Source: Bacteroidota bacterium
GTDB taxonomy: Bacteria; Bacteroidota; Ignavibacteria; Kryptoniales; JAKASW01
Direction of reading: 5' to 3'
DNA length: 35,621 nucleotides
Assembly (NCBI GenBank): GCA_021794075.1
Contig: JAJYRM010000037.1
Span: 1-35,621 of the forward strand
The position numbers were made by a program, and so were the translations under genes. This document shows, piece after piece, positions 12,522 through 33,543 of the stretch (its first letter is position 1; every line of letters begins with the position of its first letter). The notes beneath the pieces are model-generated. The model was not told the DNA's origin. It saw only the letters and a list, made by a program, of their open reading frames with translations, and searched no databases.

Positions 12522-14216
12522 ATGAAATGGCTGCTACCCCTTCTCATGTCTTTGACTCTGTTAACCGCTACGACTCCTGTTTCCGCCCAGGAGGTCGACT
12601 CGGCCGCTTCTGATCAGGGTGGTATCATCGACTCTCTTAGGACCCAGATGCGCGGGATAGAAAAATCTTACATGTTGCTCAAAGAGCGCACAGACTCTAC
12701 CAAGCACTTCACTGAAGCCGACAGGCTCGAGCTCGAGAAGCTGTCGCAGGAAATGACTTCTATAGGGGAACAGCTGAAGCATCTTACTGAGAATGCTGCT
12801 CGACTCGCGAATGACGCAGCTGATGTTTACGACCTGAAAAATGCCGTGATCGAAAATGGCGACTACACAATCTCAGATAACGAAGTAGTGAACCATGATG
12901 TCAAAGTTCTTAACGGTGATGCATTCATTCACGGCACACTGAAAGGAAGCATTGTGGTTGTGAACGGTGATGCGTATGTCCGGAACGGCGCGAAGGTAAC
13001 CGGAGACGTGATCGTGGTGAACGGCAAGGTCCACGTCAGCCGGAACGCGGAGGTCGAAGGGAACGTCATAGAGCGCGGCGGCGCGGATCTTGAAATGAGG
13101 CGCGATCTCACCGAGAAGCTTCACATACTTAGCAATCCTGACATATGGTCGAAGCCCAGCTTTCTGTTCAACAGGCTCGCGGCTGATTACAACCGCGTAG
13201 ATGGACTATTCCTGGGAATAGGTCAACGCAGGGAATTTTACTGGAGCGGCGCTGAGAGTTTCTCGCCTTACGGATTCGTCGGCTATGCTTTTGCTCTGCA
13301 TAGGTGGCGATATGAGGTAGGATTGGATAAATGGTTCGGAAACCGGGACAGATTCGAAGCGGGCATTGAGGCGCATTCGTTGACCGATTCCAAGGATTAT
13401 TGGATAATAGGTCCAAAAGAAAATTCACTGTACTCGATTCTCGCGAAAGAAGATTTCATGGACTACTTCTCGAGAGATGGGATGTCGGTCCACGTAGCGC
13501 AATACTATGAAATGAATTCACGCATAAAGGTGAGTTTTGATGTCGACAAGTACTCCTCATTATCCAATATGACCAACTGGTCTATCTTCGGGGGACACAA
13601 ATCTTTCCGTCCCAATCCTTCCGTCACCGATGGTTGGATGCGGAGCGTCGTCGTCGATTTACAGCACCGCCAGTACACGGGTGACTCCAAGCGAGTCGGG
13701 TGGATAGCCGATCTTCGCGGTGAGACGACTGTAAGCGGCGCTTTCAATTTCTCAATGTTGACGGCGAACTTTGTAAGGTATCAGCCGCTCTTCAGGGGTA
13801 TGCAGCTAAACATGAGACTGCGGGGTGGCACATCCCGCGGATTTCTTCCGCTGCAGAGAAATTACCAGATAGGCGGCTTCAATACCCTCAACGCATTTCC
13901 TTACAAGGAGTTTACGGGCAACAGGCTGGTCCTCTTCAACGCAGAGCTCCTGTTGAGTCCCGAATTGTTCAAGCGTTCTCATCTTTTCCCTCTCAACACT
14001 GTGACTCTGATACTCTTCAGCGATGTCGGGGAAATGCAGGATGCTGGCACGGTGGGGATGACAAATGGCTGGCAGCTTATGACGCTGGGCGGTCTTAAAT
14101 CCGATTATGGAGTCGGACTCGGCAACGGCTCAGGCAGCTTCAGGATTTTCCTTGCGTGGAGGACTGACATCAGCGCGTCGCCGACATTCGGAATCAGAAT
14201 AGCAAGACCCTTCTAG
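12522..14216 (+). CDS. Outer-membrane protein joining coiled coil, bactofilin-like beta-helix and Omp85-like barrel
   Basis: A 564-residue exported protein with four parts. Residues 1-22 are a signal peptide ending SAQ. About 35-105 is a charged heptad-like helical region (DRLELEKLSQEM and similar). About 122-185 holds three tandem 18-19-residue turns built on V-x-V-x-NG-D/K-A/V-x-V/I (VLNGDAFIHG at 129, VVNGDAYVRN at 146, VVNGKVHVSR at 165), like polymer-forming bactofilin or adhesin beta-helices. About 200-564 reads as alternating amphipathic strands. It includes YQIGGFNTLNAFPYKEFTGN near 446 and a terminal IRIARPF, similar to the last strands of BamA/ShlB-type barrels. No POTRA domains are evident. 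The role is unknown: periplasmic beta-helix polymerisation or anchoring to a barrel is inference. A hairpin terminator follows. Confidence 0.75.
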   Translation: MKWLLPLLMSLTLLTATTPVSAQEVDSAASDQGGIIDSLRTQMRGIEKSYMLLKERTDSTKHFTEADRLELEKLSQEMTSIGEQLKHLTENAARLANDAADVYDLKNAVIENGDYTISDNEVVNHDVKVLNGDAFIHGTLKGSIVVVNGDAYVRNGAKVTGDVIVVNGKVHVSRNAEVEGNVIERGGADLEMRRDLTEKLHILSNPDIWSKPSFLFNRLAADYNRVDGLFLGIGQRREFYWSGAESFSPYGFVGYAFALHRWRYEVGLDKWFGNRDRFEAGIEAHSLTDSKDYWIIGPKENSLYSILAKEDFMDYFSRDGMSVHVAQYYEMNSRIKVSFDVDKYSSLSNMTNWSIFGGHKSFRPNPSVTDGWMRSVVVDLQHRQYTGDSKRVGWIADLRGETTVSGAFNFSMLTANFVRYQPLFRGMQLNMRLRGGTSRGFLPLQRNYQIGGFNTLNAFPYKEFTGNRLVLFNAELLLSPELFKRSHLFPLNTVTLILFSDVGEMQDAGTVGMTNGWQLMTLGGLKSDYGVGLGNGSGSFRIFLAWRTDISASPTFGIRIARPF

Positions 14217-25254: not shown

Positions 25255-27246
25255 ATGTCTCTTAAACACCTGGCTTTTCTGTTTTTCCTGAGCTTAATTG
25301 CCGCAGGCTGTGCGGCAAACCTGAGCGTGGATAACAAAGTCATTGCAGTGGTCGGTGGGAGGCCGATCACGTACGGTCAATTCGAGCAGCAGTATTTGCA
25401 GAATTCCGTTCCGAACAGCGACTCCATCAACTCGATTTCCAGCAAGAAGAATTTTCTCAACTTGCTCATCGATTATAGACTCAAACTCATGGATGCCAGG
25501 AAGGAGCATCTTCTCGACCAGCCGGCGATGAAGTCTGAGATGCAGAAATACGAGACGCAGCTTGCGGTAAGTTACGTGCTCGAGCATCAAATCACTGATC
25601 CGATGGTTAAGAAGATTTACGAACGACGCAAGTCTGAAGTAAGCGCGAAGGAAGTATTCATCCAAATAAAGCCGGATTCGGCATATCCTTTGGGAGACAC
25701 TCTCAAGGCGTATGACGAGGCGATGGGAGTAATCAAGGCTCTGAAAGCCGGAGCTCCGATAGATTCGCTGATTCACGCTTATCGAGGAGGGGATACCTAC
25801 TATGTTACCGCCGGGACTTTCCTTCAATACAAGGGCGGCGAACAGTTTGAGAACATGCTGTATTCGCTCAAGCCGGGCGAAGTGGGAAGTTATCCTGTGC
25901 GGACGCCGTACGGTTATCTTGTCATAAAACTAGAGGATAGAAGGCCTCGCGTGGAAGCCATTCGCGTGAGCCACATCCTTATAAAAATAGACGGCACCAC
26001 TCCCGCGGATACGCTAAAGGCGTATGACAAAGCGCTTGCCATCATGGATTCCGCAAAAAGCGGAGTCGATTTCGCGAAACTTGCTCATGAGTATTCCGCG
26101 GACTCCTTATCGGCGAAGCGCGGCGGTGATCTCGGGTATTTCAAACGCGGTATGATGGTACGACCTTTCGACGAGGCCGCATTTGACATGACGAAGATCG
26201 GTCAGATTACAGGCCCGGTGAGAACCCAGTTTGGTTATCATATTATTAAACTGACCGGAATACAACCCGTCCCGCCATTCAACGAGGTAAAGGAATCGTT
26301 GCGGTCCGCGTACCTTAACGGTGGCTACAAGTTCGACTACGACAGCTTCGTTGAAGGCCTCAAGAAGAAGTACGACTTCACGCTCGACGAAAAGGCAATC
26401 GACTCGTTGTACGCCAAAGTCGATTCTCTGAAAACATTTGAGAGCGCCGACTTTGATTCGCTCCTCACGCCTGAGGAAATGAAGATGGATCTCTTCACGT
26501 TTGATCATGAGGGTGGAACGGTAGACACAGTCCTAGCGATTGCAAGGGAAGGTGGACAATCCGCATCCTTAATGCTTACGAGACAAAACATAGTCAATAT
26601 TGCGAACGCAGCGGGGAAGGACCTGGTGCTAGCGCACTACGCCGTACCGGCTGCGCGTACCTATCCGCAATTCGATTCGCTCATAACAAAGTATGAAGAC
26701 GGCATCATGATCTACCAGATTGAGCAAGAGAAGGTCTGGGATAAAATTGCGACTACGGACAGCGTCCTGAAGCCGTACTTCCTGGCGCACACCGACAGGT
26801 ACACATGGCCGCGAAGAGTTGATCTCAGCAGGATCGATGTAGCTACCCAGAAACTTGCCGACAGCCTTCACACGCAGCTTAAAGGTGGAGCGAATTTCGA
26901 TACGCTGGCCGCAAAGTTCGATTTGGGAAAAGAACAAAGGGACAGTGATGGACACTGGGGTTTGTTCGCTGACTCCGCGAACGCTCTCGTAATCGAAGCG
27001 TTTGGGATGCAGCCTGGCCAATTCAGCAAACCTGAAAACTTCGAAGGGACATTCACGATATTCAAGGTCAACAAATTCGTGTCGCCGGAACCGAAGACTT
27101 TCAAGGAAGCGCGCGGCGAGGTGTCGGCTGATTACCAGGAATATGAGTCGAACAGGCTCAGAAAAGAGTGGATGCAGCATTTGAGGAACGAGTTCGGCGT
27201 GAAGGTAAATGAGAAGACTTTCGATGAGCTTATTTCGGAGAAGTAA
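25255..27246 (+). CDS. Lipoprotein peptidyl-prolyl isomerase with multiple parvulin-like modules (SurA/PrsA-like)
   Basis: A 663-residue protein with a lipoprotein signal (LIAAGC, cysteine 19), so probably anchored in the periplasm. After a SurA-type N-terminal helical region (VIAVVGGRPITYGQFEQQY from about 29), it carries a degenerate parvulin-like module at about 131-228 and a clear one at about 235-335. The clear module has VSHILIKID, FAKLAHEYS, GGDLGYFKRGMM and TQFGYHIIKL. A third divergent module lies at about 515-615 (FDTLAAKFD, GHWGLFADS, FEGTFTIFKV). Such proteins chaperone and isomerise exported proteins. GGAGG gives a good ribosome site. Its end overlaps the next gene by 23 nt, so translation is probably coupled. 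Enzyme activity of the outer modules is doubtful. Confidence 0.88.
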   Translation: MSLKHLAFLFFLSLIAAGCAANLSVDNKVIAVVGGRPITYGQFEQQYLQNSVPNSDSINSISSKKNFLNLLIDYRLKLMDARKEHLLDQPAMKSEMQKYETQLAVSYVLEHQITDPMVKKIYERRKSEVSAKEVFIQIKPDSAYPLGDTLKAYDEAMGVIKALKAGAPIDSLIHAYRGGDTYYVTAGTFLQYKGGEQFENMLYSLKPGEVGSYPVRTPYGYLVIKLEDRRPRVEAIRVSHILIKIDGTTPADTLKAYDKALAIMDSAKSGVDFAKLAHEYSADSLSAKRGGDLGYFKRGMMVRPFDEAAFDMTKIGQITGPVRTQFGYHIIKLTGIQPVPPFNEVKESLRSAYLNGGYKFDYDSFVEGLKKKYDFTLDEKAIDSLYAKVDSLKTFESADFDSLLTPEEMKMDLFTFDHEGGTVDTVLAIAREGGQSASLMLTRQNIVNIANAAGKDLVLAHYAVPAARTYPQFDSLITKYEDGIMIYQIEQEKVWDKIATTDSVLKPYFLAHTDRYTWPRRVDLSRIDVATQKLADSLHTQLKGGANFDTLAAKFDLGKEQRDSDGHWGLFADSANALVIEAFGMQPGQFSKPENFEGTFTIFKVNKFVSPEPKTFKEARGEVSADYQEYESNRLRKEWMQHLRNEFGVKVNEKTFDELISEK

Positions 27247-28072
27247 CTCAATTGCGATTCTAATCCCAGTCGTCTCCGCCGTACTGCTTGCAGGGTGTTC
27301 CAGGGAGGCCGAGCGCGGAAAGTTCCTCGCATCCGTTCGTGGGAACGATCTCCGAATGGGCGACGTCGCGCCGCATGTCGACACCAGCTCCGCGTATGCG
27401 GTTCGAAATTATGTTTCGAATTGGGTCGACGAGCAGTTGCTCTACGAGGAAGCGAAGAAACTCGGCCTCAACGAATCTCCGCAATTTGAGCAGCGGGTAA
27501 AGGAATTCTCGATGCAACTTGCCATTACGATGCTGCTCAACAAAGAGATATACAACGTCCCTCTGAATCTTTCACCGCAGGAAGTGGCGGCGTTCTACGA
27601 CTCCCACCGCGGAGAGTTCATGGCCTCCGGCGATGTCGCTTACGTTAACTATGCGGGATTTGACCAACGAAGCGTGGCGGTTGCCTTTAGGAACACTCTC
27701 GTTTCGGGGACGCCTTGGTCATCCGCGTTCTCGCAGATCCCTGCCTATCAGATCATCTCGGTGAAGGACTCAGTCTACCTCAAAGGATCAGATGCTAACG
27801 GGGCCGTCTGGAATGTCATTCAATCTCTCGACCCCGGGAAAGTCTCTTTCCCGATCCAGGTGGACAGCGTGAGCTACATAGTCCAGGTCATCGACAAAAT
27901 CAGTCCCGGGGAAATGCTTCCTCTGAGCTACGCGGCACCTCAAATCAGGGAGAGGCTGACCATCGAGAAACGACAGAAAATGTACAGCGCGCTCGTTGAT
28001 TCTCTCAGATCGTTGGGAAATTTTCAGATTAATCCTAGTGTTGCTATTAGTGATACTAATAGCCAGGAGTGA
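27224..28072 (+). CDS. SurA/PpiC-like lipoprotein with degenerate isomerase domain
   Basis: A 282-residue lipoprotein (VLLAGC, cysteine about 25). The middle has the SurA-type helical layout (NWVDEQLLYEEAKKLGLNE, FEQRVKEFSMQLAITMLLNKE, LSPQEVAAFYDSHRGEF), the part that binds unfolded chains. The following region (about 140-240) has parvulin-like spacing ending in SVSYIVQVIDK but lacks the HILI and GGDLG core, so isomerase activity is unlikely. ATG 27224 lies inside the end of the previous gene with GAGAAG about 7 nt upstream. The stop is followed 5 nt later by the SurA-like gene. It probably acts with its two neighbours as a periplasmic holdase. Confidence 0.8.
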   Translation: MSLFRRSNSIAILIPVVSAVLLAGCSREAERGKFLASVRGNDLRMGDVAPHVDTSSAYAVRNYVSNWVDEQLLYEEAKKLGLNESPQFEQRVKEFSMQLAITMLLNKEIYNVPLNLSPQEVAAFYDSHRGEFMASGDVAYVNYAGFDQRSVAVAFRNTLVSGTPWSSAFSQIPAYQIISVKDSVYLKGSDANGAVWNVIQSLDPGKVSFPIQVDSVSYIVQVIDKISPGEMLPLSYAAPQIRERLTIEKRQKMYSALVDSLRSLGNFQINPSVAISDTNSQE

Positions 28073-28077
28073 TTAGA

Positions 28078-29355
28078 GTGAAGAAGGTAAGTGAAATATT
28101 GGTCATGTTGTCGTTGTTCGCCGGCCTGGCGTTCGGCCAGTCTAAGCCGGTGCTTGACGGCGTAGTTGCCGTGGTTGGCAATCAAATAATTTTGAAATCT
28201 GAGCTCGACTACCAGGTTCAGTTGGCGGCTTATCAGAACAAGCTGAACCCAGACGATCCGCAACTTCGCAAGAGAATACTCGATGCGATGATAGATGATA
28301 AACTGATACTCGCTCAGGCGGAACTCGATAGCGTAACGGTGAGTGACGAGCAAGTCAGCAGGCAACTCGATCAGAGGATCCAGAATCTTATCGCACAGGT
28401 CGGGAGCAAGGAGAAAGTCGAAAAGTTGTACGGCATGTCGATAAGCAAGATTCAAAACGAATTCAGAGCGGACATGCGCCGGCAGCTTATGATTGAGAAG
28501 GAAAAGGAAAATAAATTCGGCGATATGAAAGTATCTCCTCTTGAAGTGCGACAGTTTTACGAAGAGTATAAAGACAGCCTTCAGGAGGTCCCGGAGGAAG
28601 TGACCCTGAGTCATATATTCATTAAGCCGAAGCCGAGCAAGAAAGCGCAGGAAGAGGCGTACGCCAGGGCGGAAGCACTCCTTGATTCCCTGAGGCACGG
28701 CGCGAGTTTCTCGGAGCTTGCAAAAAAATACTCGCAGGACCCCGGAAGCGCTCCTGACGGAGGCGACCTGGGATGGGCGAGCCGCGGACAGTTCGTGCCG
28801 GAATTTGAACACGCTGTCTACGGGCTGAAACCGGGTCAGATATCCGGTATTGTCAAGACTCAGTTCGGCTACCACATCATCCAATTGCTTCAGCGCAGGG
28901 GCGACATGGTTCACGCGAGACATATACTTATAAAGATTCCAGTGCTGCCATCGGACAATGATTCAACTATCGCATTCCTAGATTCGCTTCGCCAGGCGGC
29001 GATGCACGGCGCAAGCTTCGCGGTTCTGGCGAGGGAATTCTCAGAAGACAAACAGACTCAGGACCTCGGCGGCGACCTGGGGACTGTCTCCATCGATCAG
29101 CTCGAGCCTGCATTCCGAGCCACTGTTGATTCGATGAAGGTCGGTGAGATCAGCAATCCCGTCAAAGTCACAGCGGGCGCGTCGTATGGTTACCAGATCG
29201 TGTACTTGAGGAACCGAATACCCGCGCACAAGGTCAACCTCAATGAGGATTACGCCCGTCTTGAAAAAATGGCTCTAACGATGAAGCAGAACGAAGCCTA
29301 CCAGAAGTGGATCGATCAACTCAAGAAACAAGTATATTGGAAGGTCTTGAGCTGA
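28078..29355 (+). CDS. SurA-like periplasmic chaperone with two parvulin domains
   Basis: A 425-residue soluble periplasmic protein with a cleavable signal (about 1-20, ending AFG). The SurA-N region starts at VLDGVVAVVGNQIILKSELD, followed by helices to about 170. Two full parvulin domains come next: VTLSHIFIKPKP to FGYHIIQLL (about 175-275), with the GGDLGWASRGQFVPEFE loop, and VHARHILIKIP to YGYQIVYLR (about 285-385). The length and domain order match E. coli SurA, which escorts outer-membrane proteins to the Bam complex. GTG 28078 is chosen over GTG 28069 because AGGAG sits 8 nt upstream and KK then starts the signal peptide. In many Bacteroidota a similar gene set leads directly to a MoxR gene (recalled, not checked). 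Confidence 0.92.
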   Translation: MKKVSEILVMLSLFAGLAFGQSKPVLDGVVAVVGNQIILKSELDYQVQLAAYQNKLNPDDPQLRKRILDAMIDDKLILAQAELDSVTVSDEQVSRQLDQRIQNLIAQVGSKEKVEKLYGMSISKIQNEFRADMRRQLMIEKEKENKFGDMKVSPLEVRQFYEEYKDSLQEVPEEVTLSHIFIKPKPSKKAQEEAYARAEALLDSLRHGASFSELAKKYSQDPGSAPDGGDLGWASRGQFVPEFEHAVYGLKPGQISGIVKTQFGYHIIQLLQRRGDMVHARHILIKIPVLPSDNDSTIAFLDSLRQAAMHGASFAVLAREFSEDKQTQDLGGDLGTVSIDQLEPAFRATVDSMKVGEISNPVKVTAGASYGYQIVYLRNRIPAHKVNLNEDYARLEKMALTMKQNEAYQKWIDQLKKQVYWKVLS

Positions 29356-29441
29356 GAAACGGGGGCGCGAGTTAACATTAGTGGAGGGCCGATTGCCCTT
29401 CTTCCTCATCCAGACCGTTCTTGAATTCTCGCGGAGACGAG

Positions 29442-30710
29442 TTGATATTCATAGAGTTCTCTGAATTAACTCTGCCAAACGGTTTGCACGTTATAATGAG
29501 CCCGGACAGGAGCGCTCCCGTGATCGCAGTTGACGTTTGGTATCACGTCGGAAGTAAGAATGAAGAGCCGTCTCGCACCGGCTTCGCTCATTTGTTCGAA
29601 CATATGATGTTCCAGGGCTCGGCCAATGTGAAGAAGGCCGAACATATGAAGTATGTAGAAGAAGCGGGAGGAGTCTTCAACGGTTCCACAAGCCATGATC
29701 GTACCAATTATTATGAAGCGCTCCCTTCAAATCGCCTGGAGCTAGCCCTTTGGCTGGAGTCCGACAGAATGTCAAGCCTGGATATCAGCCGCCGCAATCT
29801 CGACAATCAAAGGGATGTTGTGAAGGAGGAAAGGCGCTTCCGTGTCGACAACAAGCCATACGGGAGCGCATGGGAGAAAATCTTCGCGTTGGCTTATCGT
29901 GAACATCCGTACAAGTGGCCTGTCGTCGGTTATCTTGAGCATCTCGACGCGGCCACTGTGAACGAAGCAAGATCGTTCTTTCGCAAATACTACCTGCCCA
30001 ATAACGCGGTTCTCGCTATCTCAGGGGATTTCATCCCTTCCGAGGCGATGAAGCTCGTTGAGAAATACTTCGGGGATATCCCCCCTGGCGTTGTGGGCCG
30101 TAGCGATCGGGTGGCGGAGGAACCTCTGAGCAGTCAGGCACGCGAAGTCGTTTATGACAATGTGGCGCTCCCGGCAATCTACATGGCTTTCAGGGTGCCA
30201 CCCATGATTTCGGACGATTCGAACGCGCTAAACCTTGCGGCAGAGATTCTCTCAAAGGGGAAAAGCTCGAGGCTGTACAGGAAGCTTGTGTATGAGAAAA
30301 GGATCGCTCAATCGGTGGGCGCCTTTCAGCTCGACTTAGAGGATCCGGGTTTGTTTGTCGTGAATGCCGTTGTCTCTGCTGGGAACAAGCTGGAAGATAT
30401 GGAGCGTGAGATCAGGAACGAAATTCGACTCCTTGCAGAAAGAGGGCCACGCGAGAGTGAGCTGGAAAAAACAAGGAATCAGTTCTCCTCGGACTGGGTC
30501 AGGCAGTTGACGAAGGCACTCGGGCGTGCCGACAACCTTGCTCAGTTCCACACGTTATACGGCAACGCCGGAATGATAAACCGATACCTTGATAGACTTC
30601 TGCACGTATCGGGCAGGCAGGTCAGGGATGTCACGCGCGAATACCTTGACACTGACAATAGCGCCGTAGTGTACTATTATCCCCGCGAGAATAGGGCGCG
30701 TAAGCGTTAA
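29442..30710 (+). CDS. M16 family zinc peptidase (active-site copy 1)
   Basis: A 422-residue pitrilysin/mitochondrial-processing-peptidase-like metallopeptidase. The inverted zinc motif HLFEH is at about 50-54 and the third ligand is in VVKEERR (glutamate about 130), 76 residues later as the family requires. Other marks are LPNGLHVIMSPD, VDVWYHVGSKNE, TNYYEALPSNRLELALWLESDRM and the C-terminal-half RLYRKLVYEKRIAQS. No clear signal peptide is visible, so the compartment is uncertain. TTG 29442 follows GGAGACGAG and is preferred to TTG 29421. It closely resembles the next gene, indicating tandem duplication. Confidence 0.9.
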   Translation: MIFIEFSELTLPNGLHVIMSPDRSAPVIAVDVWYHVGSKNEEPSRTGFAHLFEHMMFQGSANVKKAEHMKYVEEAGGVFNGSTSHDRTNYYEALPSNRLELALWLESDRMSSLDISRRNLDNQRDVVKEERRFRVDNKPYGSAWEKIFALAYREHPYKWPVVGYLEHLDAATVNEARSFFRKYYLPNNAVLAISGDFIPSEAMKLVEKYFGDIPPGVVGRSDRVAEEPLSSQAREVVYDNVALPAIYMAFRVPPMISDDSNALNLAAEILSKGKSSRLYRKLVYEKRIAQSVGAFQLDLEDPGLFVVNAVVSAGNKLEDMEREIRNEIRLLAERGPRESELEKTRNQFSSDWVRQLTKALGRADNLAQFHTLYGNAGMINRYLDRLLHVSGRQVRDVTREYLDTDNSAVVYYYPRENRARKR

Positions 30711-30744
30711 ATTTAAAACATCGATCGATCGGAATTTTCTGAAA

Positions 30745-32085
30745 ATGTTTTCGAAGTACGAATTGCAAAAAGTGCTAAATGACACGAAGCCATTGAGAGC
30801 GGCAGCTCCTGTTTCGAGGCTGACAGTCAACGTAAATTTTAAAGAGTTTCGTCTGGAGAATGGACTATCCGTAATTTTGCGGCGGGATCGTTCCGTTCCT
30901 GTTGTCGCGGTGGACGTTTGCTATCACGTCGGTTCCAAGAATGAAAGGAAAGGAAAGACTGGCTTCGCTCACCTGTTCGAGCATCTGATGTTCGAGGGAT
31001 CGGAACATGTCTCCAAAGGCGAGTTCGATCATTACATCTCGCTTGCCGGGGGGTACAATAACGCTTACACTACGGAAGACGTTACCAACTACTACGAAGT
31101 ACTCCCATCGAATCAGCTGGAGCTGGCACTGTGGCTCGAAAGCGACAGGATGTTGAAGTTTACCGTGACCGAGGAGGCCCTCGCCACACAGCGCGAAGTA
31201 GTGAAAGAAGAGAAGCGGTGGCGGGTCGATAATCGTCCATACGGCGATACTTCCGAGAAATTGCAGGGATTGATTTTTCCTGTCGGGCAATATCACTGGC
31301 CCGTCATCGGTTCGATGGAAGATTTGAATGCCGCAGGAATGGCTGACGTCAGACGCTTTTACGAAACCTACTACACGCCGGATAACGCGGTGCTCGTCGT
31401 GAGCGGCGATATCGACGATGGTGACGCCGAAAGACTTGTCAGGAAATACTTTGCCGACATACCCTCCGCGAAGAATCCGGCGCCTGTAGTCCAGTTTGAA
31501 GACAAGAGTCTTTCAAATGCGGTCGAAGATGCTTTGAAAGGAAACGTTCCTTCACCGGCGGTGTTTGCCGCCTACAAAATTCCGCCTGAAGGGACGCCGG
31601 AGTACTACGAGCTAAGTCAGGCCGCCAAGATTCTTTCTGACGGTAACAGCTCGCGACTTTATAAGAGACTCCTCTATGAAAAACAGGCGGTGTCCGAGTT
31701 CGATGTTTCTATCGAGGGGTTGGAAAAAGCGGGAGTGTTCCTCTTTTCTGCATTCATCGCGCCCGGACACACGACGGATGAGGTGCTTGGAATTTTCGAT
31801 GAGGAAATCGAAAAGATGAAGAACTCCCTCGTCAGGCCCTACGAGTTTGAGAAGGCAAGGAACTCGACACTATCGTCGTACGTCAGCAGGCTTTCTACAA
31901 ACAGCGGTGTCGCCGACGCCCTTGCCCATTACCGCGTGATTTTTGGAGAAACGAGCCTGATAAACTCGGAGGTGGATCGTGAACTTAACGTTACCAGGGA
32001 GGCGGTAAGGCGGGCTTCCCGCGAGCTGCTAGACGAAGGGAAGAGAGTTGTCCTATCCTATTTTCCCTCAGAAGATAATGAGTAA
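30745..32085 (+). CDS. M16 family zinc peptidase (active-site copy 2)
   Basis: A 446-residue paralogue of the preceding gene. The zinc motif HLFEH is at 76-80 and the downstream glutamate in VVKEEKR at about 156. It shares VDVCYHVGSKNE, KTGFAHLFEH and YYEVLPSNQLELALWLESDRM with copy 1, almost residue for residue. An N-terminal stretch of about 30 residues before NFKEFRLENGL is extra. No export signal is evident. The ribosome site before ATG 30745 is weak. It lies about 35 nt after copy 1 and about 57 nt before the inactive partner, so the three genes are likely one unit. Confidence 0.9.
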   Translation: MFSKYELQKVLNDTKPLRAAAPVSRLTVNVNFKEFRLENGLSVILRRDRSVPVVAVDVCYHVGSKNERKGKTGFAHLFEHLMFEGSEHVSKGEFDHYISLAGGYNNAYTTEDVTNYYEVLPSNQLELALWLESDRMLKFTVTEEALATQREVVKEEKRWRVDNRPYGDTSEKLQGLIFPVGQYHWPVIGSMEDLNAAGMADVRRFYETYYTPDNAVLVVSGDIDDGDAERLVRKYFADIPSAKNPAPVVQFEDKSLSNAVEDALKGNVPSPAVFAAYKIPPEGTPEYYELSQAAKILSDGNSSRLYKRLLYEKQAVSEFDVSIEGLEKAGVFLFSAFIAPGHTTDEVLGIFDEEIEKMKNSLVRPYEFEKARNSTLSSYVSRLSTNSGVADALAHYRVIFGETSLINSEVDRELNVTREAVRRASRELLDEGKRVVLSYFPSEDNE

Positions 32086-32142
32086 ATTCCAAATGCAGTC
32101 TGACTTCTCGACCAGACTCGTTCAAATTTCGGTGAGTGAATA

Positions 32143-33543
32143 ATGAAGGTTAACAGAAAGCCTGCTCTGGACAGAACCAAAGCGCCCAAACCCGGCCCGG
32201 CCGGCAAGATTTCGTTTCCAAAATATTTCGAGAAGAAATATCGGAATGGTTTCAAGATTTTCGTTATTGAAAATCATCAGCTGCCCATAGTGACGATGGG
32301 ATTCGTGCTGAAGAACGGTGCCGCCTATGACGGAGATTTGCCCGGGCTCGCGAGCGTCACCTGCGAACTCCTTTCGAAGGGGACGAAGACGAGAAGCGCG
32401 ACCAAGATTGCCGAGGAGATAGACTTTGTCGGCGGATCGCTTTCTCAGAACGTATCGTGGGACGCGGGACAAGTGTTCGTCTCGGTGCTGAAGGCCCATC
32501 TGCAGAAAGGTTTCGACATACTTCGCGATGTCGTACTGAATCCTACCTTCCCGCAGAAAGAAGCGGAGCGCGTTAAGACACAGCGAATCGCGGCTATCCG
32601 GCAGTTGAAGGCAGACCCAGGATATATGGCCGACACGACGTTTTCATCGGTCGTCTTCGGCACCCATCCCTATGGAAACACCATCAGCGGAAATGAAAAG
32701 TCGGTTAACCGAATGAGACGGGGCGATTTCTCAAAATTTCATAATGCATATTTCACTCCTGACAACTCGTTCCTCGTTTTCGCGGGAGATATCTCCCCAA
32801 AGGAGGCAGAGAAATATGTCTCAGGTTCATTTGCGAAATGGAAAGGTGTGTGTAAGAAGAGTCCGCTCCCGCCTTTGCCGGAATTGCCGCGCGACGGCCA
32901 CGTGTTCATCGCGAACAAGCAGGGCGCGGTGCAGTCCTCACTGAGGGTTGGACATCGGGGAATAGCAAGGAGCAATCCCGATTACCTGAAGGCGTTTGTA
33001 ATGAATACAATTCTCGGCGGGTATTTCAGCTCCAGGATCAATATGAACCTTCGTGAAGCGCATGGATACACTTACGGAGGACGAACCGATTTCGATGGGC
33101 GTATAATACCTGGAGCGTTTCAGGCATCGGCGGACGTGAGAAATGACGTGACCGCCGAGACGATCGAGGAAATAGTAAGAGAGTTAAAACGCATCAGGGA
33201 GACTCTTCCGTCGAAGGACGAACTTACCATGGTGAAGAATTATCTGACGGGACTTTTTCCGATTCAACTCGAGACGCCTCAGCAGGTTGCCGGACGAGTA
33301 ATTGCGTTGGAACTCTATGATCTTCCAAGAAATTACTACAGGGATTATCGAAACAATATCGGCAAGGTGACCCCGAAGGATATCCGCGAGGTTGCGAGGA
33401 AATACATAGATCCCGATAACCTGTATGTCGTCCTAAGCGGCGATGCCAGGAAGATCGCGAGCAAATTGAAAAGATTTGGACGCGTCGAGATCTTGGAAGA
33501 GGATGGCGCGGCGCGGCCTGTACAAAAACATAAACAATCATGA
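32143..33543 (+). CDS. M16 family protein lacking the zinc motif (inactive partner)
   Basis: A 466-residue M16 homologue whose active-site helix reads GLASVTCELLSKGT (about 68-81). The positions of HxxEH are S71, C74 and E75, so zinc binding is lost. The fold remains: YRNGFKIFVIENHQLPIVTMGFVLKNGAAYD at the N-terminus, and SRINMNLREAHGYTYGGRTDFD near 300, which carries the arginine/tyrosine pair used by non-catalytic subunits to hold substrate. In known two-subunit M16 enzymes one chain supplies zinc and the other this pair. The preceding two genes could supply the catalytic chain. The N-terminus is basic and not a signal peptide. The next gene follows within 14 nt. Confidence 0.88.
   Translation: MKVNRKPALDRTKAPKPGPAGKISFPKYFEKKYRNGFKIFVIENHQLPIVTMGFVLKNGAAYDGDLPGLASVTCELLSKGTKTRSATKIAEEIDFVGGSLSQNVSWDAGQVFVSVLKAHLQKGFDILRDVVLNPTFPQKEAERVKTQRIAAIRQLKADPGYMADTTFSSVVFGTHPYGNTISGNEKSVNRMRRGDFSKFHNAYFTPDNSFLVFAGDISPKEAEKYVSGSFAKWKGVCKKSPLPPLPELPRDGHVFIANKQGAVQSSLRVGHRGIARSNPDYLKAFVMNTILGGYFSSRINMNLREAHGYTYGGRTDFDGRIIPGAFQASADVRNDVTAETIEEIVRELKRIRETLPSKDELTMVKNYLTGLFPIQLETPQQVAGRVIALELYDLPRNYYRDYRNNIGKVTPKDIREVARKYIDPDNLYVVLSGDARKIASKLKRFGRVEILEEDGAARPVQKHKQS

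Follow-up and report, generated by a model that had tools for sequence, protein, structure and literature searches.

The window analysed here, a stretch of 35,621 nucleotides, contains on its plus strand a reading frame (12522-14216) that proved to be open over the coordinates first given for it. Its predicted product begins with an export signal and ends in a membrane barrel, and the following features can be recognized or are predicted within it:

12522..14216, + strand: whole gene, an open reading frame of 564 amino acids plus stop, the product ending in F
12522..12587, + strand: probable signal peptide, residues 1-22, read from the sequence, with the cut before Gln23
12585..12698, + strand: predicted stalk helix 1, residues 22-59 (AlphaFold2, single sequence)
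12714..12833, + strand: predicted stalk helix 2, residues 65-104 (AlphaFold2, single sequence)
12843..13076, + strand: predicted bactofilin-like beta-helix of about four windings, residues 108-185 (AlphaFold2, profile searches)
13080..13121, + strand: predicted linker helix between beta-helix and barrel, residues 187-200 (AlphaFold2, single sequence; low confidence past residue 187)
13167..14213, + strand: predicted Omp85-type barrel domain related to DUF5686, residues about 216-564 (Pfam, profile comparisons)
13869..13946, + strand: L6 region, IGGFNTLNAFPYKEFTGNRLVLFNAE, with N457 where Omp85 proteins have the Arg of (V/I)RG(Y/F)
14016..14030, + strand: FxDxG motif, FSDVG at 499-503, in which the lid-lock partner D501 is kept (alignment; motif from PMC4490367)
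14187..14213, + strand: C-terminal strand FGIRIARPF, beta-signal-like with terminal Phe; R559 and F564 invariant (alignment A4)

The first 22 residues are likely to be a Sec-type signal peptide: the cleavage context is ...TPVSA/QEVD, A22 and Q23 are invariant among close relatives (alignment A1), and a mature protein starting at Gln23 would fit the “Q rule” of the Bacteroidota, in which Gln directly follows the signal-peptide cut (PMC5837995). The stalk helices would form a hairpin or a broken coil, the hairpin form being our own reading. The overall architecture is very probably signal peptide, helical stalk, bactofilin-like beta-helix and Omp85-type barrel, with no POTRA domain; the preliminary description, which had proposed the order coil, bactofilin-like beta-helix and POTRA-less Omp85-like barrel, was right in this, and the order is kept in relatives.

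The surroundings of the gene give few hints. An mqnA gene lies 58 bp upstream of it, and when the neighbors of 21 loci were clustered, some families had a divergent PdxJ-like and a convergent YbbR-like gene (named by eye). These three neighbors were considered as operon partners and set aside, there being no functional link; no conserved partner beside the gene emerged from the 21 loci, and no RNA families were found within the window. Elsewhere in the window are three PpiC/SurA-type peptidyl-prolyl isomerase ORFs in a row (25255-29355) and three consecutive ORFs that by eye resemble M16 peptidases (29421-33543), two of them with an HxxEH motif.

The regular NGD/NGK turns noticed at the outset lie at residues 131-133, 148-150 and 167-169, and there is one more NGD, the fourth turn, at 112-114. 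Single-sequence AlphaFold2 predicts short strands over 108-185 (block pLDDT 75-91), and the same strands return with an 8-row alignment (66-91), so the predicted beta-helix of the preliminary description is borne out both with and without an alignment. A profile built from 27 beta-helices of other families, the query's own family being left out, matches residues 112-181 at 61.2 bits (E=3.5e-18), while 1000 composition-preserving shuffles peak at 9.9 bits against it. The Pfam Bactofilin profile (PF04519) stays under its cut-off of 27.9 bits for the query, at 18.7 bits for the whole protein and 23.2 bits (E=8.5e-5) for the domain alone; among 14 members of the family, 10 match it, at best with E=6.5e-9. 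Profile comparison with the bactofilin encoded in the same genome yields E=9e-7, and the top PDB sequence match is again a bactofilin (E=0.021). Foldseek searches of the PDB with both AlphaFold2 models found no match at E<=0.001; with the 8-row-alignment model the BacA bactofilin ranks first but at E=0.41, which carries little weight alone. By these profile measures, bactofilin is the closest known domain to the beta-helix. The same genome also holds a true bactofilin adjoining an M23-peptidase-like ORF, and two adjacent long polymer-forming-repeat ORFs (L095, L096).

Polymer formation, a property that the preliminary description linked with such helices when it suggested barrel arrays, is not supported for this domain. 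It has about four windings where the genome's own bactofilin has about six; the first bactofilin windings are absent, the query covering PF04519 positions 29-97 of 98 and lacking about 28 at the N-terminal end. The Phe of the polymer interface, in GAIFDGK of the genome's own bactofilin, aligns to Val178 in NAEVEGN, and is present in only two of 39 carriers of the beta-helix, both of them f2 copies; in BacA, replacement of the corresponding F130 by Arg abolishes polymers (PMC12448750). Helices are also predicted on both sides of the beta-helix (AlphaFold2, single sequence). Filaments or arrays are unsupported because the domain lacks those first windings and 37 of 39 carriers lack the Phe, and the beta-helix is probably not a filament former. 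It is a 73-column domain of nearly constant length (a gap of one or two residues in only 2 of 39 carriers), and a search of 61 relatives with the beta-helix alone recovered only the fusion gene (27 of 61, one per genome) and one short fragment: this fixed length and restriction to a single fusion gene per genome point to a dedicated arm.

The barrel is harder to place from the query itself than from its family. DUF5686 (PF18939) matches the query at E=6.2e-10 and 38.6 bits, 0.6 under the cut-off of 39.2, over profile positions 328-481 of 669; one relative (L073) reaches 47.7 bits. Among 21 relatives, DUF5686 is matched by 17 and Omp85 (PF01103) by 13 (best 7.9e-13), several of them passing the PF01103 cut-off of 24 bits (two score 49 and 43.4, for example). 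PF01103 does not appear among the matches of the query, whose Omp85 membership comes through its family. Alignment by hhalign of the family profile with Omp85 proteins of the same genome gives a probability of 97.7% (E=1.5e-12), and the family profile matches one PDB chain, 9ccg, an Omp85-type “POTRA domain-containing protein” (E=2.3e-6). Because of the PF01103 matches, the hhalign result and 9ccg, we hold with high confidence that the barrel is Omp85-type and DUF5686 akin to Omp85, as the earlier reading of an Omp85-like barrel had it. Typical members of the Omp85/TpsB superfamily carry one POTRA domain or more. A Pfam scan of the query found no POTRA match at E<=1, in keeping with the earlier statement that these domains are absent, and no patatin domain; the N-terminal half is stalk and beta-helix. 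Omp85/TpsB barrels have 16 strands; in the barrel region of the query AlphaFold2 gave no folded barrel, with single sequence and 8-row alignment alike (block pLDDT about 20-48). The same genome contains seven further Omp85-superfamily genes (L088-L094), BamA among them; these include a patatin-Omp85 (L091), a WD40/TolB-like-Omp85 (L094) and a POTRA-less Omp85 of 349 amino acids (L092). It also has a paralogue of the long DUF5686 type (L057; C60, 4270-6459), whose N-terminus is carboxypeptidase-regulatory-like.

A more telling departure from Omp85, absent from the preliminary description, is the loss of the L6 arginine. In Omp85 proteins the Arg of the L6-tip motif (V/I)RG(Y/F) is salt-bridged to the Asp of (F/G)xDxG in strand 13, forming the lid lock (PMC4490367). 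The query's L6 reads GGFNTLNAF, with LNAF in place of (V/I)RG(Y/F). The partner side remains: D501 and G503 are nearly invariant (alignment A4), and the strand-13 Asp is mostly kept among homologues. The Arg is found in none of the 39 beta-helix carriers (a count that includes L029, read by eye as TLNAF) and is missing in 17 of 27 non-carriers, the other 10 having it, L078 for example; within the query's genome, RG is kept at L6 in BamA and in most of the remaining Omp85 proteins, less clearly in the patatin one. The kept Asp and a conserved nearby Lys/GNR could form another lock, so the loss of the Arg is no proof that insertase function was lost.

Matches to the protein occur in 130 of 197 related genomes, a figure that includes barrel-only and long DUF5686 genes, and across the phylum the barrel profile finds matches in 176 of 297 genomes. 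A search for the same domain order in relatives found the beta-helix in 39 of the 66 distinct homologues of the barrel that were read in detail; the other 27 had none. The carriers belong to several families within the class (f1, that of the present gene, and f2, f4, f6, f9, f17 and f20) and to one outside it (f28). Judged from these sequences, the fusion is an old, conserved family within one phylum. In the genus, the sole searched member without the gene is a 2.8-Mb, 90% complete genome (G006), possibly through assembly loss. In a tree based on barrel columns only, with three long-branched rows left out, a single event accounts for the loss of the Arg (support 99/95), and four changes are required for the beta-helix label, as they also are with the three rows included. 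With the root set on the Arg-keeping side, an assumption taken from the motif and not from an outgroup, this suggests one gain of the beta-helix after loss of the Arg, followed by three losses (in f3, in f13, and in f18 with f23). A single origin of the copies without beta-helix was rejected (p-AU 6e-30 when they were held as one clade). In the f3 copies (L044-L049), an Asp/Glu/Trp-rich linker takes the place of the beta-helix between helices and barrel.

What might such a protein do? The reading that we favor, tentatively and at somewhat short of even probability, is an anchor derived from Omp85 that does not translocate and holds a rigid arm in the periplasm for self-pairing or docking: an Omp85-type barrel would have been turned from translocase or insertase into an outer-membrane anchor. 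BAM would insert the barrel into the outer membrane, and the N-terminal part would remain periplasmic, like POTRA domains and the patatin domain of PlpD; by this analogy, a periplasmic location of the beta-helix is likely. Stalk and beta-helix would make a short, rigid arm, to which the beta-helix contributes roughly 2 nm and the helices up to 5-6 nm; this arm may pair two barrels or dock a periplasmic partner, with the beta-helix acting as a stiff docking surface and not as a filament former. Such an anchor is favored by the precedent of PlpD, whose N-terminal patatin domain is periplasmic, in a homodimer, and not secreted though once thought so (PMC11116518), and by the loss of the L6 Arg on a single branch. 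With a BamA and six more Omp85 proteins in the genome, the fusion gene is not needed as a BamA, and since three lineages dropped the beta-helix, that domain would be dispensable. The lack of a conserved partner beside the gene in the 21 loci speaks against the reading.

The main rival, which we consider unlikely, is a POTRA-less insertase or a helper of BAM or TAM, coil and beta-helix replacing POTRA domains as a platform for substrates or partners. The barrel is of the right type, POTRA-less Sam50 is functional, and “noNterm” Omp85 proteins are thought to be active in assembly (PMC4104836), but the lid-lock Arg is gone across the whole clade, BamA and other POTRA-bearing Omp85 proteins are already present, and the platform was dropped three times with the barrel retained. 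PlpD is also the precedent for a role in lipid handling (PMC11116518), in which a similar disturbance of the inner leaflet would be combined with an arm placing a partner for lipid transfer or turnover; we regard this as rather improbable, the N-terminal part showing no catalytic or lipid-binding domain and the gene no conserved lipid genes alongside it. Beta-helices joined end to end, linking barrels into an envelope-bracing periplasmic lattice, are improbable as well: bactofilin is the nearest domain family, and anchoring by the barrel could favor polymerization in the same way as binding to the membrane favors that of BacA (PMC12448750), yet the missing N-terminal windings, the Val at the interface, the helices flanking both ends and the repeated loss of the domain all count against it. 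Equally a long shot is the bolder version in which the lid-lock-less barrel anchors a paired or higher-order periplasmic beta-helix scaffold, which in the envelopes of this phylum would be the outer membrane's equivalent of the bactofilin skeleton. Export of the beta-helix to the surface as an adhesin, in the manner of type V secretion, is very improbable. Beta-helices are typical of autotransporter and two-partner passengers (PMC11116518), but this one is N-terminal to an Omp85 barrel, a position that is periplasmic in studied cases including PlpD, has only about four windings, and is free of adhesin-like length variation; the earlier suggestion of a passenger or plug found no support.

The long form of DUF5686 has a barrel region homologous to that of the query and a CarboxypepD_reg N-terminus, where the query has stalk and beta-helix instead. 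Omp85/TpsB “noNterm” and patatin (PlpD) proteins likewise combine an Omp85 barrel with no N-terminal domain or a non-POTRA one, but PlpD keeps one POTRA, whereas the query has neither POTRA nor patatin and has lost the L6 Arg. Sam50 or BamA stripped of POTRA domains is likewise a bare Omp85 barrel in the membrane, to which the query adds a broken lid-lock motif and an extra arm. Bactofilin (PF04519; full domain about 110 amino acids) has a similar short beta-helix repeat, while the query's domain has fewer windings and no polymerization Phe, and is predicted to be exported and fused to a barrel. The ten Omp85 subfamilies of Heinz and Lithgow (2014), including POTRA-less, WD40, patatin and metallo types, contain none with a beta-helix (PMC4104836). 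In the open-licence part of the literature, no paper was found on DUF5686 by name or on bactofilin joined to Omp85; the fusion appears to be undescribed, silence of the literature being weak evidence.

The finding may interest specialists in outer-membrane biogenesis, as a conserved Omp85 branch in which the lid lock was lost and a beta-helix gained. The beta-helix joins the short list of non-POTRA domains on Omp85 barrels, and the suggested history is an ordered one: the Arg lost once, the beta-helix gained once and then dropped three times. The family may thereby offer two natural tests. What can replace POTRA domains? And once the lid lock is gone, does an Omp85 barrel go on moving proteins, or has it become a plain anchor?
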